From Okeania hirsuta (GTDB taxonomy: Bacteria > Cyanobacteriota > Cyanobacteriia > Cyanobacteriales > Microcoleaceae), in assembly GCF_003838195.1 (NCBI RefSeq), contig NZ_RCBY01000019.1, positions 1 to 62,035 of the forward strand: 62,035 bases of DNA, written 5' to 3'. The first letter of the stretch is position 1, and every line of letters starts with the position of its first letter. The position numbers and the translations under genes are program-made. Below are positions 16,420 through 20,763 of this stretch, in pieces. A model generated the notes under the pieces. The model was not told the DNA's origin. It did no database searches and saw nothing but the letters and a program-made list of their open reading frames with translations.

Positions 16420-16440
<21 letters not shown>

Positions 16441-17682
16441 AAAATATCCTAATAAATACAGAGAACCACATAAAACAATCAGATTTTCACTGTCAACCAC
16501 AGCCTCTTCCATCGCGGTTCTTAAATTGGGGTAAGCTTGACAGAATGCTAATTCTGTGCAAATATTCTTAGCTATAGTAGTAAGCTGACCCGTATCAGCC
16601 GAACTATGGTCTGGAACAGGAACTAGGTATAAACGATCGCCCGGTCTAATCAAAGCGCGAAAAATTTCTGAATGTTCTTTAGTTGAGAGCATACCCATAA
16701 CCCAACTGATAGATTGGTAATTAAGTGTCCTGACATATCTCCCCAATACTTGGGCAGCAGCAGTATTATGAGCACCATCAATCAATAATTTACGGTCTTG
16801 CCATTTTGTCCATTGCAAACGCCCAGGCCATTTAGTATTAGCTATTCCTTCTTTAATTGCTGCTGGAAAAATCTGCCAACCCTGTTTTTCCAGGATATGA
16901 ATTGTCGCAATAGCGATCGCTGAATTTATTAACTGTACATCTCCAAGTAATGGGAGTGGGTATTCAATACCTTGATAATTAGCCATTGGCAGAGAATCAT
17001 TTTCTCTACTCCCCTCTAATAATTCAGCAGGTTTCACCCAAACTACGGGACACTCCAAATCATTAACCCGTTTTTGTACTACTTTTTCCGCTTCTGGTGG
17101 TAGTTGCCCAATTACTGCAGGACATCCTGGTTTCAGAATACCCGCTTTTTCACCAGCAATATCAGCTAAAGTTGGACCCAACCTTTGCCAATGTTCCCAA
17201 CTAATTGAAGTAATCACAGTTACCATTGGTTGCTGACAAACATTTGTGGCATCTAGTCTTCCTCCCAAACCTACTTCTACAACTGCTACATCTACTTCTT
17301 GTTGAGCAAAATATAACCAAGCTGCTGCAGTAATAACTTCAAACAGAGTGGGTGAAGCTTGTTCTGGATTAATAGCTGCTTCTACTTCTTCCAATAACTC
17401 TTCTAGTTTAGTCGGAGAAATTTGTTGTTCGTTAAGGCAAATACGTTCTGTCCAGTCTACTAAATGGGGTGAAGTGTAACGTCCAACTTTATATCCCGCT
17501 GCTGTGAGGATCGAAGATAAGTAAGCACAGACAGAACCTTTACCATTTGTCCCCGCAACGTGAATAATGGGTACTTGTTGATGAGGGTTTCCTAGGTTAT
17601 CTAAGAGTTGGTAGATGCGTTCCAGACCAAGCTCAACGCCAAAGTGTTCAAAGCGTTTCAGGAAAGAGTCTATTGAGTTCAC
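16420..17682 (-). CDS. folC: Bifunctional folylpolyglutamate synthase / dihydrofolate synthase
   Basis: 420 residues from a GTG start at 17682. It adds glutamate to dihydropteroate and to folates using ATP. Mur-ligase-type motifs are clear: P-loop IHVAGTNGKGSVCAYL (about residues 39-54), TSPHLVDWTERI, EVGLGGRLDATN and LLIDGAHNTAAA. Length is normal. Its 3' end overlaps the ancestral end of the PatA-like pseudogene on the opposite strand by 21 bases. It lies 109 bases downstream of the graspetide ligase on the same strand, so some readthrough is possible, but a functional link is not implied. Confidence 0.95.
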
Positions 17683-17791: not shown

Positions 17792-18685
17792 CTATCCTAT
17801 CAAGGTCTCAATCATCGCCTCACATAGAGACCCCTTGACCACTTGATCGAACCTAACAAACATAGGTGAACTATTCAGTTCTAAAAATACAAGTTTCTTC
17901 GTTTTTGGATCTGTTTTGAAGTCAGCGGCTCCAAAATCCATCCTTAAATTTGCCATGAACTTTCGTAATAACTCCACTTCATCTGGCAGTGTTGCAAGAG
18001 GAATGATTTCCGCATCTGGCTGAACTCGATAATCTAGATGCTGACTACGAATTTCAAAAGCAAAGGCAAAATTTCCTACTATATATATCCGAATTTCTGG
18101 CGCAACTAATCGATTTTGGACAATAGCTGGCATAGCTGCACAACCATTCCGAAACTGGATAGAGGAATGCAATTGTTCTAGGGAATAACAAAAATCACCC
18201 CCTGCAACTGGCTTGGCAATTGCACTCCCAGCAGAATATTTGCCCAACTCCTCAGCTTCGTTTGTAATCAAAGTATCAGGAATGAGCAACCCTAACTTTT
18301 GGGCTAAAATCAGCATTGCTGGTTTATTGCCAACTGCAGGTAAATGGTTACGATTGAACAACCGGATTTGGGGTTGTGAGAGTAACCAACCATAGAGGGT
18401 TTGATACCAACCCGACGCCCGTTGTGATGCTCCAGATTTGGGAGCGCTCAAATTACCAAAAACGTCATACCGAATAAACGCTCCAGTTGCCGATACAACT
18501 CGGTCTTTTATTGTAGGTTGTCCCTGAGTAAGATGCCATGAAAACTCTGGACTTTCTTCTTGCCCATGAAGTACCTCGCAAATAGGAACCTGTTGACTTT
18601 GAGCAATTTCAATCAGTCGAGTAAGATTCGGGTCTAACTGCCCACCTGCAATTAGCAAACATTTACCATCTGCTGATTTAATCAT
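17792..18685 (-). CDS. Graspetide-type ATP-grasp ligase (macrocyclase), PsnB/MvdD-like
   Basis: 297 residues from ATG 18685; a TTG nine bases upstream is a weaker choice. The precursor stop and this start overlap as TAATG, a classic coupling arrangement. The ATP-grasp fold is visible: NRNHLPAVGNKPAMLILAQ (mid-protein), GLLIPDTLITNEAEEL, AIAKPVAGGDF and the C-terminal metal/ATP site DFGAADF...LVFLELNSSP. Family knowledge: such enzymes join Glu/Asp side chains to Thr/Ser (or Lys) side chains of a ribosomal precursor with ATP, producing omega-ester macrocycles. The neighbouring precursor with repeated TTxxxxEE cores fixes the likely substrate. No transporter or protease gene is adjacent. Confidence 0.85.
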   Translation of the reverse strand: MIKSADGKCLLIAGGQLDPNLTRLIEIAQSQQVPICEVLHGQEESPEFSWHLTQGQPTIKDRVVSATGAFIRYDVFGNLSAPKSGASQRASGWYQTLYGWLLSQPQIRLFNRNHLPAVGNKPAMLILAQKLGLLIPDTLITNEAEELGKYSAGSAIAKPVAGGDFCYSLEQLHSSIQFRNGCAAMPAIVQNRLVAPEIRIYIVGNFAFAFEIRSQHLDYRVQPDAEIIPLATLPDEVELLRKFMANLRMDFGAADFKTDPKTKKLVFLELNSSPMFVRFDQVVKGSLCEAMIETLIG

Positions 18686-19542
18686 TAGTACCAACCAAAT
18701 GGACCACCCTCTTCACCGACTGCCAGTGTTGTTGGTGGACTTTCCTCTCCTACTGCTTGTGTTGTCGCTTGAGGATCTTCCTCTCCTACTGCTTGTGTCG
18801 TTGGTTGACCTTCTTCTCCTACTGCATATGTCGTTGGTTGAGGACTTTCCTCTCCTACTGCATATGTCGTCGGCTGACCTTCCTCTCCTACTGCATATGT
18901 CGTTGGTTGACTTTCTTCTCCTACTGCTTGTGTTGTCGGTGGAGGACTTTCTTCTCCTACTGCTTGTGTCGTTGGTGGAGGACTTTCCTCTCCTACTGCT
19001 TGTGTCGTTGGTTGAGGAGGTTGTTCCTCTCCGTATGCCAATGTTGTCGGTTGAGCTTGTGAAATGAGTTGAGGACCTTCCTCTCCGTATGCCAATGTAG
19101 TTGGTTGAGGACCTTCCTCCCCTACTGCTCGCGTACTTGGTTCTTCCTCTCCTAGTGCCAATGTCGTAAATTGAGGCTCTTCTTCTCCTACTGCCAATGT
19201 TGTAGGTTGAGAGCTTATCTGGCCAGGTGTGATAAACTCACCAGCATGAACAGTAATGGAATTAATGCGGGCCGAAACAATTACCGCATCTGCACCATTG
19301 GTCGGTGTAAAGTCCACAGTAGCCATAATTGGTGTTAAGCGTGGAAGACTAACATCTGATGGTTTATCAGCGTCAAAACTAAATTCTAGGACAGAATCAT
19401 CTGGATTAGGATCGGCTGAGTTATCTAACCGAGGATTTGTCCAGCCAGAAGTTGCAGTCAGTCCCTCTGCTTGAATACTGAGCTTCAGCGGAGACTCGGT
19501 AATCTTAGTTACAGAAACCCGCAGTACCTTGAAAACTTTCAT
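18685..19542 (-). CDS. Multi-core graspetide precursor peptide with 14 TTxxxxEE-type cores
   Basis: 285 residues. Residues 1-110 form a leader-like region (starting MKVFKVLRVSVTKITESPLK) that I do not recognise. Residues 114-278 hold 14 copies of an eight-residue core: TTLAVGEE (114, 271), TTLALGEE (126), STRAVGEE (136), TTLAYGEE (148, 166), TTQAVGEE (179, 191, 203, 248, 260) and TTYAVGEE (214, 225, 237), joined by short linkers of Pro, Gln, Ser, Gly, Glu or Asp. The tail is GGPFGWY. TTxxxxEE is the core consensus of plesiocin-type graspetides, where two Thr and two Glu side chains form two ester rings. It lacks the TxKYPSD signature of microviridins. The repetitive DNA makes the opposite strand appear open; those frames are shadows. 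Confidence 0.88.
   Translation of the reverse strand: MKVFKVLRVSVTKITESPLKLSIQAEGLTATSGWTNPRLDNSADPNPDDSVLEFSFDADKPSDVSLPRLTPIMATVDFTPTNGADAVIVSARINSITVHAGEFITPGQISSQPTTLAVGEEEPQFTTLALGEEEPSTRAVGEEGPQPTTLAYGEEGPQLISQAQPTTLAYGEEQPPQPTTQAVGEESPPPTTQAVGEESPPPTTQAVGEESQPTTYAVGEEGQPTTYAVGEESPQPTTYAVGEEGQPTTQAVGEEDPQATTQAVGEESPPTTLAVGEEGGPFGWY
18709..19203 (-). repeat. Intragenic core-repeat array of the graspetide precursor
   Basis: Fourteen tandem coding units of about 30-54 bases with a conserved block coding for (A/G)-V/Y/L-G-E-E and variable linkers. Unit spacing is 10-18 codons. Codon-level identity is highest among units 6-13, suggesting recent duplication by unequal exchange in the middle of the array. 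Confidence 0.85.
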
Positions 19543-19662: not shown

Positions 19663-19923
19663 CTAGGGCGTGACCGATCTAATCTAAAAGAATTGACATA
19701 TAAAGACAAGTGCCTTTTTGGGGCATTGAAAAAGTGCCTGGTATCACGTCTAAAACGCTCAAAAAGTTAGTATTTTAGGCAAGGTTGGGCATAAAAATAA
19801 TTCTTACAATTCTTACTCCTGCCTCCTCTAAATTCCCCTAACTCCTGTCTCCTGCCTCCTGCCTCCTGCCTCCTGCCTCCTGCCTCCTGCCTCCTGCCTC
19901 CTGCCTCCTACCCCAAACCCTAA
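19663..19923 (+). mobile_element. Inverted-repeat element, family alpha, copy 2
   Basis: It begins TAGGGCGTGACCGATCTAAT, aligned with AGGGTTTACTGATTAAATC of copy 50956. It shares AACGCTCAAAAAGTTAGTAT and AATTCTTACTCCTGCC, followed by a long run of TCCTGCC heptads, and ends AAACCCTAAC. The right end lacks the TTTTTCAGC part. It lies between the graspetide precursor start and the rsmI stop, about 120 bases upstream of the precursor ATG. Confidence 0.65.
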
Positions 19924-20763
19924 CTATATTTTTAGAGCTATTTGATAAATTTGGCGACGGGACAGGTTTGTTTGATAGGCCAGTTGGCGACTAGCTTGCG
20001 ACCGCGAAATTCCTTGTTCTAAAAGTTTTTGTAATTCTACTTTAATAGTATCTTCTGATATTACTGGTGTATCTGGTTCAGCTCCTGCAATAATCAGGGT
20101 AAATTCTCCCCTTGGTTGATTAGTTTGATAATGAATAATTGCTTGTCCAATTGTACCACGCCAAAATTCTTCATAGAGTTTTGTTAATTCTCTAGCTAAG
20201 ACTATTTTTCTCTGTTTACCTAATACTTTAGCTAAATCTTCCAAGGTTTGTTTGAGCTTATGGGGAGATTCATATAAAATTATGGTTTCTTGTAAGTTGG
20301 GTAAAATTTCTAAGTCTTGTTGACGTTGTTTACTTTTGCTTGGTAAAAAACCGATAAATATAAATTTATTGCTAGGTAGTCCAGAAGCACTTAATGCTGT
20401 AATACTTGCACTTACTCCTGGTATTGGTACTACGGATATATTTGCTCCAACACAAGCTTTTACTATTTCATATCCAGGGTCAGATATTCCTGGCATTCCT
20501 GCATCAGTTACTAGAGCAATTGTTTTTCCTTGATGTAATTTTTCGATTAATTCAGGTATACGACTTTGTTGGTTATGTTGATGGTAACTTAATTGTGGAG
20601 TTTGGATATCAAAATGTTGTAATAATTTGTTGGTGTGGCGAGTGTCTTCTGCTGCTATTAAGTCTACTGTTTGTAGGGTTTTAATTGCTCGAAATGTTAT
20701 ATCTTCTAGATTGCCTATTGGTGTGCCAACAATGTAAAGAGTCCCTGAATTTACTTCACTCAT
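19924..20763 (-). CDS. rsmI: 16S rRNA (cytidine-1402-2'-O)-methyltransferase RsmI
   Basis: 279 residues. Motifs of the tetrapyrrole-methylase-like fold are clear: LYIVGTPIGNLEDITFRA at the N-terminus, AAEDTRHTNKLL, ALVTDAGMPGISDPG and PIPGVSASITALSASGLP. Together with RsmH it modifies C1402 in the ribosomal decoding centre using S-adenosylmethionine. The C-terminal helix-turn-helix-like segment GISRSQASRQLAYQTNLSRR is usual in the family. It starts at ATG 20763 and is monocistronic as far as I can see. Confidence 0.95.
   Translation of the reverse strand: MSEVNSGTLYIVGTPIGNLEDITFRAIKTLQTVDLIAAEDTRHTNKLLQHFDIQTPQLSYHQHNQQSRIPELIEKLHQGKTIALVTDAGMPGISDPGYEIVKACVGANISVVPIPGVSASITALSASGLPSNKFIFIGFLPSKSKQRQQDLEILPNLQETIILYESPHKLKQTLEDLAKVLGKQRKIVLARELTKLYEEFWRGTIGQAIIHYQTNQPRGEFTLIIAGAEPDTPVISEDTIKVELQKLLEQGISRSQASRQLAYQTNLSRRQIYQIALKI

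Follow-up and report, generated by a model that had tools for sequence, protein, structure and literature searches.

The gene pair and its setting

What does a cyanobacterium make from a protein that carries one octapeptide fourteen times over, when the adjoining gene encodes an ATP-grasp ligase, and how would such a ligase find its substrate? The question is raised by two genes of Okeania hirsuta, both on the reverse strand of a 62,035-nucleotide stretch of contig NZ_RCBY01000019.1 that we analysed as a whole (the window). The first (18685..19542) is an open reading frame of 285 aa, the proposed multi-core graspetide precursor; ten relatives share its layout, and one of these is damaged. The second (17792..18685) encodes an ATP-grasp ligase that HMM searches, a PDB sequence match, its predicted fold and phylogenetic trees mark as a proposed graspetide synthetase. 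The stop codon of the precursor and the ATG of the ligase have one base in common (TAATG), and the list of open reading frames also offers an alternative ligase start, a TTG at 18694, nine bases upstream of the ATG. On recounting, the length of the precursor, its 14 tandem octapeptides and the TAATG overlap were all as stated in an initial reading made from the letters alone (the sequence-only reading).

The pair is flanked by folC (16420-17682) and rsmI (19924-20763), and neither the open reading frames of the window nor an HMM search placed a transporter or protease beside it, which bears out the initial impression of a locus that lacks both. An NHLM-type transporter or peptidase is absent beside the window pair, no neighbour of that sort recurs in the 16 related loci described below, and the five matches to C39 peptidases in the genome all lie off the window's contig. 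Carriage by a plasmid or by a virus was considered and set aside, there being no match to a plasmid or to a viral contig. A scan returned 8 promoter-like sites (3.5 expected) and 2 terminator-like sites (2.1 expected), which we do not use as evidence. Between rsmI and the precursor lies an array of the heptanucleotide CTCCTGC (9.7 copies, 19842-19909).

Affinities of the ligase

The sequence-only reading took the ligase for a graspetide macrocyclase and not a RimK-type enzyme, and HMM scores, PDB sequence match and predicted fold agree with this. The comparison with graspetide family models that it had suggested, now run for the ligase, gave 76.9 bits for TIGR04187, 52 for MvdD and 44.9 for MvdC, against 17.4 for RimK (E 0.0022); since all of these NCBIfam scores fall far below the curated cut-offs (143.4 for RimK), the ligase is to be regarded as divergent. 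A Pfam search of the ligase yielded no match. The best PDB sequence match was 7drm (PsnB), at 4.8e-11. When an AlphaFold2 model of the ligase (13 sequences; pLDDT 84.6, pTM 0.85) was compared by Foldseek, rows 1-30 were occupied by the graspetide macrocyclases PsnB, MdnC, AMdnB, CdnC and PruB (the last of which we take to be such an enzyme), with PsnB at the top (4.1e-17) and matches at a TM of ~0.7 and ~20% identity; LysX (row 31), MdnB (32), ArgX (33-34) and RimK (35; 6.2e-12) followed. This ranking favours the graspetide enzymes, though all the proteins compared are of one fold. With its score so far below the cut-off, its fold rank of 35 and Pfam silent, RimK/GSH-S was rejected as the closest family. 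The ATP-grasp residues K159, R200, D256, E270 and N272 align as well with the RimK row as with PsnB, MdnB and CdnC; they therefore point to an intact site without telling the families apart.

A tree of 27 ligases sets the 14 rows of the window clade apart on one side of a branch supported at 100/100, with a very long stem (2.82 changes/site), and places beside them the cyanobacterial ligases of a second, HPF-led type. A tree of the C-terminal half (28 rows), in which PsnB, MdnB and CdnC are represented by fragments and two of three RimK-family rows are omitted, again recovers the window clade (98/98) and joins it to the Mdn/Cdn enzymes (84/82), with PsnB beside RimK (97/88) on long branches; that placement led us to set this tree aside as evidence of descent. 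Because both trees contain long branches and disagree about neighbours, they do not fix the nearest known synthetase. By sequence the ligase falls in a clade of its own, found in marine cyanobacteria, Acidobacteria and Aquabacterium. Its nearest named relative, in Okeania sp. SIO2C9, is 94% identical, and against nine relatives its dN/dS is 0.13-0.27.

Conservation and variation of the cores

The array of 14 (T/S)TxAxGEE cores (18709..19203, reverse strand), delimited by the core pattern, a genome-wide count and TRF, begins at residue 114 of the precursor, and short Pro-rich linkers of 2-10 residues separate its units; the full chain has a mass of 29.8 kDa and is acidic (pI 4.05). The cores comprise TTLAVGEE, TTLALGEE, STRAVGEE, TTLAYGEE (twice), TTQAVGEE (five times), TTYAVGEE (three times) and a further TTLAVGEE. 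Position 3 is therefore L in five, Q in five, Y in three and R in one, which confirms the variants first listed (L, Q, Y and the single STRAVGEE core) and adds the R of the latter; variation at position 5 (V, L or Y) had been overlooked. Searched as a DNA pattern, TTxAxGEE has 25 matches in the 8.79-Mb genome, as opposed to 0 for the reversed control: 13 make up the window array (the STR core falling outside the pattern), 11 a second array on contig C698, and one lies elsewhere.

The central units had been suspected of recent duplication, and this is supported by cores 6-13, which differ pairwise at 0-4 of 24 bases and include two identical pairs, and by a 36-bp array of 8.1 copies that TRF reports at 18737-19018. 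Recent duplication is not, however, the only source of uniformity. We collected 150 cores from 11 precursors (that of the window and those of ten cyanobacterial relatives) by the core pattern, which leaves an MTLAVGEE unit of L016 uncounted. Positions 1, 2, 4, 6, 7 and 8 read T143/S7, T150, A148, G150, E149 and E149, such that the ring donors (T or S, then T) are present in all 150 cores and the acceptors (E,E) in 149, a conservation that supports what would be expected if two esters formed per core. At these six fixed positions, the third base differs in 15-67% of pairwise comparisons and the first and second in 0-9%; since silent bases vary where the residues do not, selection on the protein sequence, and not recent copying alone, keeps the amino acids of the cores. 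The codon for position 3 varies at all three bases (39-65% of pairs), and the residue has an entropy of 2.41 bits (L49, Q36, R23, M17, Y16, K8, E1), compared with 1.88 bits at position 5. Core units differ at 4.89 of 24 bases within a gene and at 5.72 between genes.

The number of cores, which had seemed exceptional, is not: the ten cyanobacterial relatives have 10-17, and the precursor of L087 (2409-3440) has 23 exact TTxxxxEE cores, or 26 with degenerate ones.

The N-terminal domain and the C-terminal tail

Residues 1-113 of the precursor (19204..19542, reverse strand) form an N-terminal domain that is kept in marine cyanobacteria, where nine relatives are 83-96% identical to the window's under purifying selection (dN/dS 0.07-0.36). 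The sequence-only reading had spoken of an unfamiliar leader of about 110 residues; its length and novelty hold, in that searches of Pfam, NCBIfam and PDB produced no match, but its role as a docking leader is doubtful, because other members of the ligase clade lack the domain altogether. An AlphaFold2 model based on ten near-identical leader sequences was unusable (pLDDT 34.9). The motif PF is absent from the domain. Matches to the loose motif Phhx(1,2)h turn up in each of the 11 cyanobacterial N-terminal regions, without a common place (it starts at 71 in eight regions, at 18 in five and at 68 in L018).

The domain may have a parent elsewhere. A 261-aa protein (L025, 1432-2217) resembles it in its C-terminal third, with GWTNPxL in common (E 5.7e-6, in one of 386 genomes; hhalign E 1.5e-7), and the 3.2 kb of DNA around it contain no ATP-grasp gene; on this similarity, the precursor may have acquired its N-terminal domain from such a protein. 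Adding L025 to the leader model brought in no new member among 244 genomes. A 196-aa protein beside another ATP-grasp gene, on contig C112, was considered as a relative of the leader and rejected for want of any evident relationship.

At the other end, the precursor closes with GGPFGWY (18688..18708, reverse strand), which we propose as a docking (follower) motif on the strength of its conservation in clade precursors. PFG occurs within the last six residues of 13 of 17 such precursors (the window, L008-L016, L017, L019 and L087), with the consensus PFG-x-(Y/F). The tails in Aquabacterium have no proline (AFGSF in L021 and L022, ALGSF in L023), and the truncated precursor L018 has neither a PFG nor an AFG/ALG tail. 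Since 11 of the 13 PFG tails are cyanobacterial, mostly from close kin, independent support is provided by L019 and L087 and, less exactly, by Aquabacterium. Judged by eye, the stretches ahead of the cores differ: cyanobacterial precursors have the 113-residue domain, L019 has 28 residues, and L023 and L022 of Aquabacterium have 17-21 (L021 being cut by the contig end). L087, from the same phylum as L019, begins its cores ~10 residues after the ATG and ends in NPFGGF. By eye, L019 and L087 have a short M-x-EKK start in common; the short N-terminus of L019 also contains PF. That the tail is a by-product of the overlapping ligase start can be ruled out, for the TAATG junction of the cyanobacteria is replaced by others in L019, L022 and L023.

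In the HPF-type precursors of the same cyanobacterial family, which are paired with another ligase, an N-terminal HPF(D/E/G) was present in 14 of 14 and a C-terminal PFG in 0 of 14, a count that omits ligases L053, L058/L073, L061, L064 and L065 (no precursor was seen in the adjacent stretch). In the accessible part of PMC8939145, microviridin leaders carry PFFARFL, and roughly half of the graspetide precursors match the loose pattern Phhx(1,2)h; the tail does not itself fit the strict pattern. A closer parallel comes from the accessible part of a 2026 paper (PMC13003496), in which RPFG is the key recognition tetrapeptide of ThfA, the fuscimiditide precursor, and the ThfA leader is still effective when engineered to the C-terminus as a follower. 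Given a conserved PFG tail, the role of RPFG and the C-terminal activity in ThfA, we propose that the window encodes a natural follower-guided graspetide, whose PFGxY tail would be a better docking candidate than the 113-residue domain. A literature search, with many subscription papers outside its reach, turned up no earlier natural follower in a graspetide.

Other graspetide-like systems in the same genome

The genome contains a second multi-core TTxAxGEE system (L030, on contig C698, 414-1880 and 2392-3297), whose HPF-led precursor of 488 aa has about a dozen cores and then a conserved C-terminal region of ~180 residues ending in NLNFI. Counted with its relatives (L069-L072, L074), this type occurs in the five genomes of the genus searched and in one of another genus. 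The C-terminal region presumably resembles the end of a secreted RTX-type protein, and Pfam returned nothing for it. The HPF-led precursors (L030, L069-L072, L074 and eight short ones) are similar to that of the window in their TTxAxGEE cores and a nearby ATP-grasp ligase, and differ from it in the N-terminal HPF, in a ligase of a separate clade and, in six, in the long C-terminal region. A third graspetide-type ATP-grasp gene (TIGR04187, 158 bits) is present on contig C112 (L031; 7491-8429, 8785-9534 and 9549-10139), with 249-aa and 196-aa neighbours that have no family match.

Distribution, exchange and decay

A scan of bacterial genomes with the ligase recovered 16 loci, distributed among Okeania, Trichodesmium, Moorena, Symploca, Oscillatoria, Crocosphaera, two Acidobacteria and three Aquabacterium, and 10 of the 16 (the damaged L018 among them) have a precursor of the window's plan. 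The pair occupies the site between rsmI and folC in the Okeania and Trichodesmium types (L008 and L016; L018 with folC only), and neither gene was found in the DNA examined around the other loci. Across unlinked settings, the precursor and the ligase are the sole families that recur in the 16 loci. This comparison considered ORFs of at least 90 aa after an overlap filter, by which the L022 ligase and short precursors dropped out; shared neighbours were confined to sets from the same site or genus, except for L015/L019 and a response-regulator type common to L008, L018, L022 and L023.

Between the window and L016, dS is 0.142 for the leader (only 104 codons) and 0.303 for the ligase, whereas folC (0.757), rsmI (0.488) and two further neighbours (0.921 and 0.594) have all diverged more. 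With a dS below that of the surrounding genes, the pair appears to have changed hands later than its flanks did.

Losses are evident as well. In a genome of another genus of the family (G320), the rsmI-folC site retains ~28 codons from the start of the leader, the rest being gone, and this relic (L026) is a record of loss. In Crocosphaera watsonii (L017, 4448-6004), the precursor has no N-terminal domain, and its cores, tail and ligase remain; the ORFs directly ahead of it are, we presume, transposase-like. Matches to the leader were obtained in 3 of 386 cyanobacterial genomes (its own, the relic and a distant domain; E 0.001) and to the ligase clade in 1 of 386 (its own; E 1e-30). Within the family of Okeania, 20 of 61 genomes match the ligase at 1e-20; four of these have the window type, one of them in partial form, and all others the weaker HPF type. 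The family sample of Aquabacterium yielded 1 of 299 genomes, the centre itself (E 1e-40), and the acidobacterial sample 2 of 347, including the centre (E 1e-40). At the thresholds used, these matches indicate that the pair is rare; it also often decays.

Three further observations concern gene content. L020 (4300-4933) encodes a clade ligase with no recognisable precursor directly upstream, where there is instead an unrelated-looking protein. A SET-domain gene (by Pfam) adjoins the precursor in L023, and a similar gene is seen by eye in L022. An HD-domain gene precedes the precursor in L023 and another lies ~8 kb from the C698 pair, possibly by coincidence.

Discussion

Going by the sequence comparisons, the two genes very probably encode a graspetide system whose cores are of the plesiocin type. 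In the mechanism that we propose, the ligase would phosphorylate both glutamates in every TTxAxGEE core and join them to two threonines (or to a serine and a threonine), converting each core into a bicyclic hairpin; by homology to plesiocin, one window chain could carry up to 28 esters. The ligase would dock on the C-terminal PFGxY tail as a natural follower and work over the repeats from there, and the 113-residue domain would be a lineage-specific fusion with another job. According to the accessible part of PMC13097080, plesiocin is a potent inhibitor of serine proteases, and the more of its motifs are cyclised, the more potent it becomes. By extension, the hairpins would present residue 3 (L, Q, R, M, Y or K) and residue 5, both variable, the former possibly being the specificity residue, and the product would be a many-headed serine-protease inhibitor of several specificities. 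There being no linked protease or transporter, the chain might be used whole, or machinery encoded elsewhere might process and export it. We consider this reading as a whole (a two-gene graspetide unit with the ligase docked on the tail, an N-terminal fusion with other duties and an inhibitory product) to be somewhat probable. We put forward more tentatively, as falling a little short of probable, its extension to the clade, in which a C-terminal PFG-x-Y/F follower would free the N-terminus, and precursors with 14-23 cores would become giant ester-locked inhibitors used whole.

A possible alternative, which we regard as rather doubtful, is that the system is a plesiocin-like graspetide guided by a leader: the 113-residue domain would bind the ligase, and PFGxY would serve stability, export or folding. 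The leaders of microviridin, AMdnA and ThfA are N-terminal, going by the accessible parts of PMC8939145, PMC5934393 and PMC13003496; purifying selection on the domain could reflect a docking site in cyanobacteria; and each of its copies contains a loose Phhx(1,2)h match. Unfortunately, this hypothesis has difficulty with the rest of the clade: the same clade of ligases serves N-termini that are different, short or nearly absent, and the tail is kept.

Nor need the product be an inhibitor. Ester hairpins might stiffen an acidic, Pro-rich chain into a cross-linked structural or surface repeat protein, with protease inhibition beside the point. The lack of a linked protease or exporter, the length and acidity of the chain (pI 4.05) and a second precursor family, of the same genome and genus, with its ~180-residue and presumably RTX-like C-terminal region (on which Pfam is silent) are consistent with this explanation; we nevertheless think it unlikely, because variability peaks at a position within the ring, which better fits diversification toward targets.

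That the locus is a decaying remnant with no present function in the window genome would agree with the relic in G320, the damaged L018, the two altered cores in L016 and the beheaded precursor of L017 beside its presumed transposases, and is nonetheless very improbable, given two intact reading frames in the window, 14 complete cores and a ligase that evolves under constraint (dN/dS 0.13-0.27). Least probable of all is that a ligase of the RimK/LysX type extends the EE ends of the repeats with further residues and closes no ring, for although there is a RimK-family HMM match and the ATP-grasp fold and residues are common to both, graspetide macrocyclases outrank RimK by HMM, sequence and fold, and at least 149 of the 150 cores retain T,T along with E,E.

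Comparison with known systems

We found no report in the literature that links graspetides with Okeania. The kind to which the system probably belongs is already known: a graspetide with a plesiocin-type core. Its variant features, as they appear from sequence, are a separate ligase clade, a C-terminal PFG tail, N-termini that differ or are minimal, and very many cores. Plesiocin (PsnA2/PsnB, graspetide group 2) is alike in its repeated TTxxxxEE cores and single ATP-grasp ligase, and PsnB is the best sequence and fold match of the window ligase by score and rank. A search of PDB for the PsnA2 core with a made-up repeat query gave nothing useful. The differences from plesiocin are a PFG tail, the 113-residue domain, 14 cores in place of 4 (according to the accessible part of PMC12291112) and the absence of an NHLM transporter, with which group 2 has a high co-occurrence in the available portion of PMC13097080.

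Cyanobacteria already offer a multi-core precursor with an ATP-grasp macrocyclase in AMdnA/AMdnC, a microviridin system of Anabaena; as far as the accessible text of PMC5934393 goes, AMdnA has three microviridin cores and an N-terminal helical leader, unlike the window precursor. The available portion of the 2026 survey in PMC13097080 describes long precursors with repeating motifs in groups 34 and 35, and a synthetase and precursor alone in group 35. Since group 35 fits by its general description, on which our comparison is based, the window locus may already be catalogued among these groups.

The most informative comparison is with fuscimiditide (ThfA/ThfB), which has a similar PFG-type recognition tetrapeptide and, in the accessible part of PMC13003496, tolerates an engineered C-terminal leader. 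The recognition motif of ThfA is naturally N-terminal and its core is a single stem-loop, whereas the window precursor has a C-terminal tail and 14 cores. If the tail is indeed a natural follower, evolution would have made the same C-terminal move as that engineering, and the result would be a minimal two-gene system for installing ester-locked hairpins in a chain whose N-terminus stays free, as well as ready-made arrays that display many loop variants on one invariant frame.
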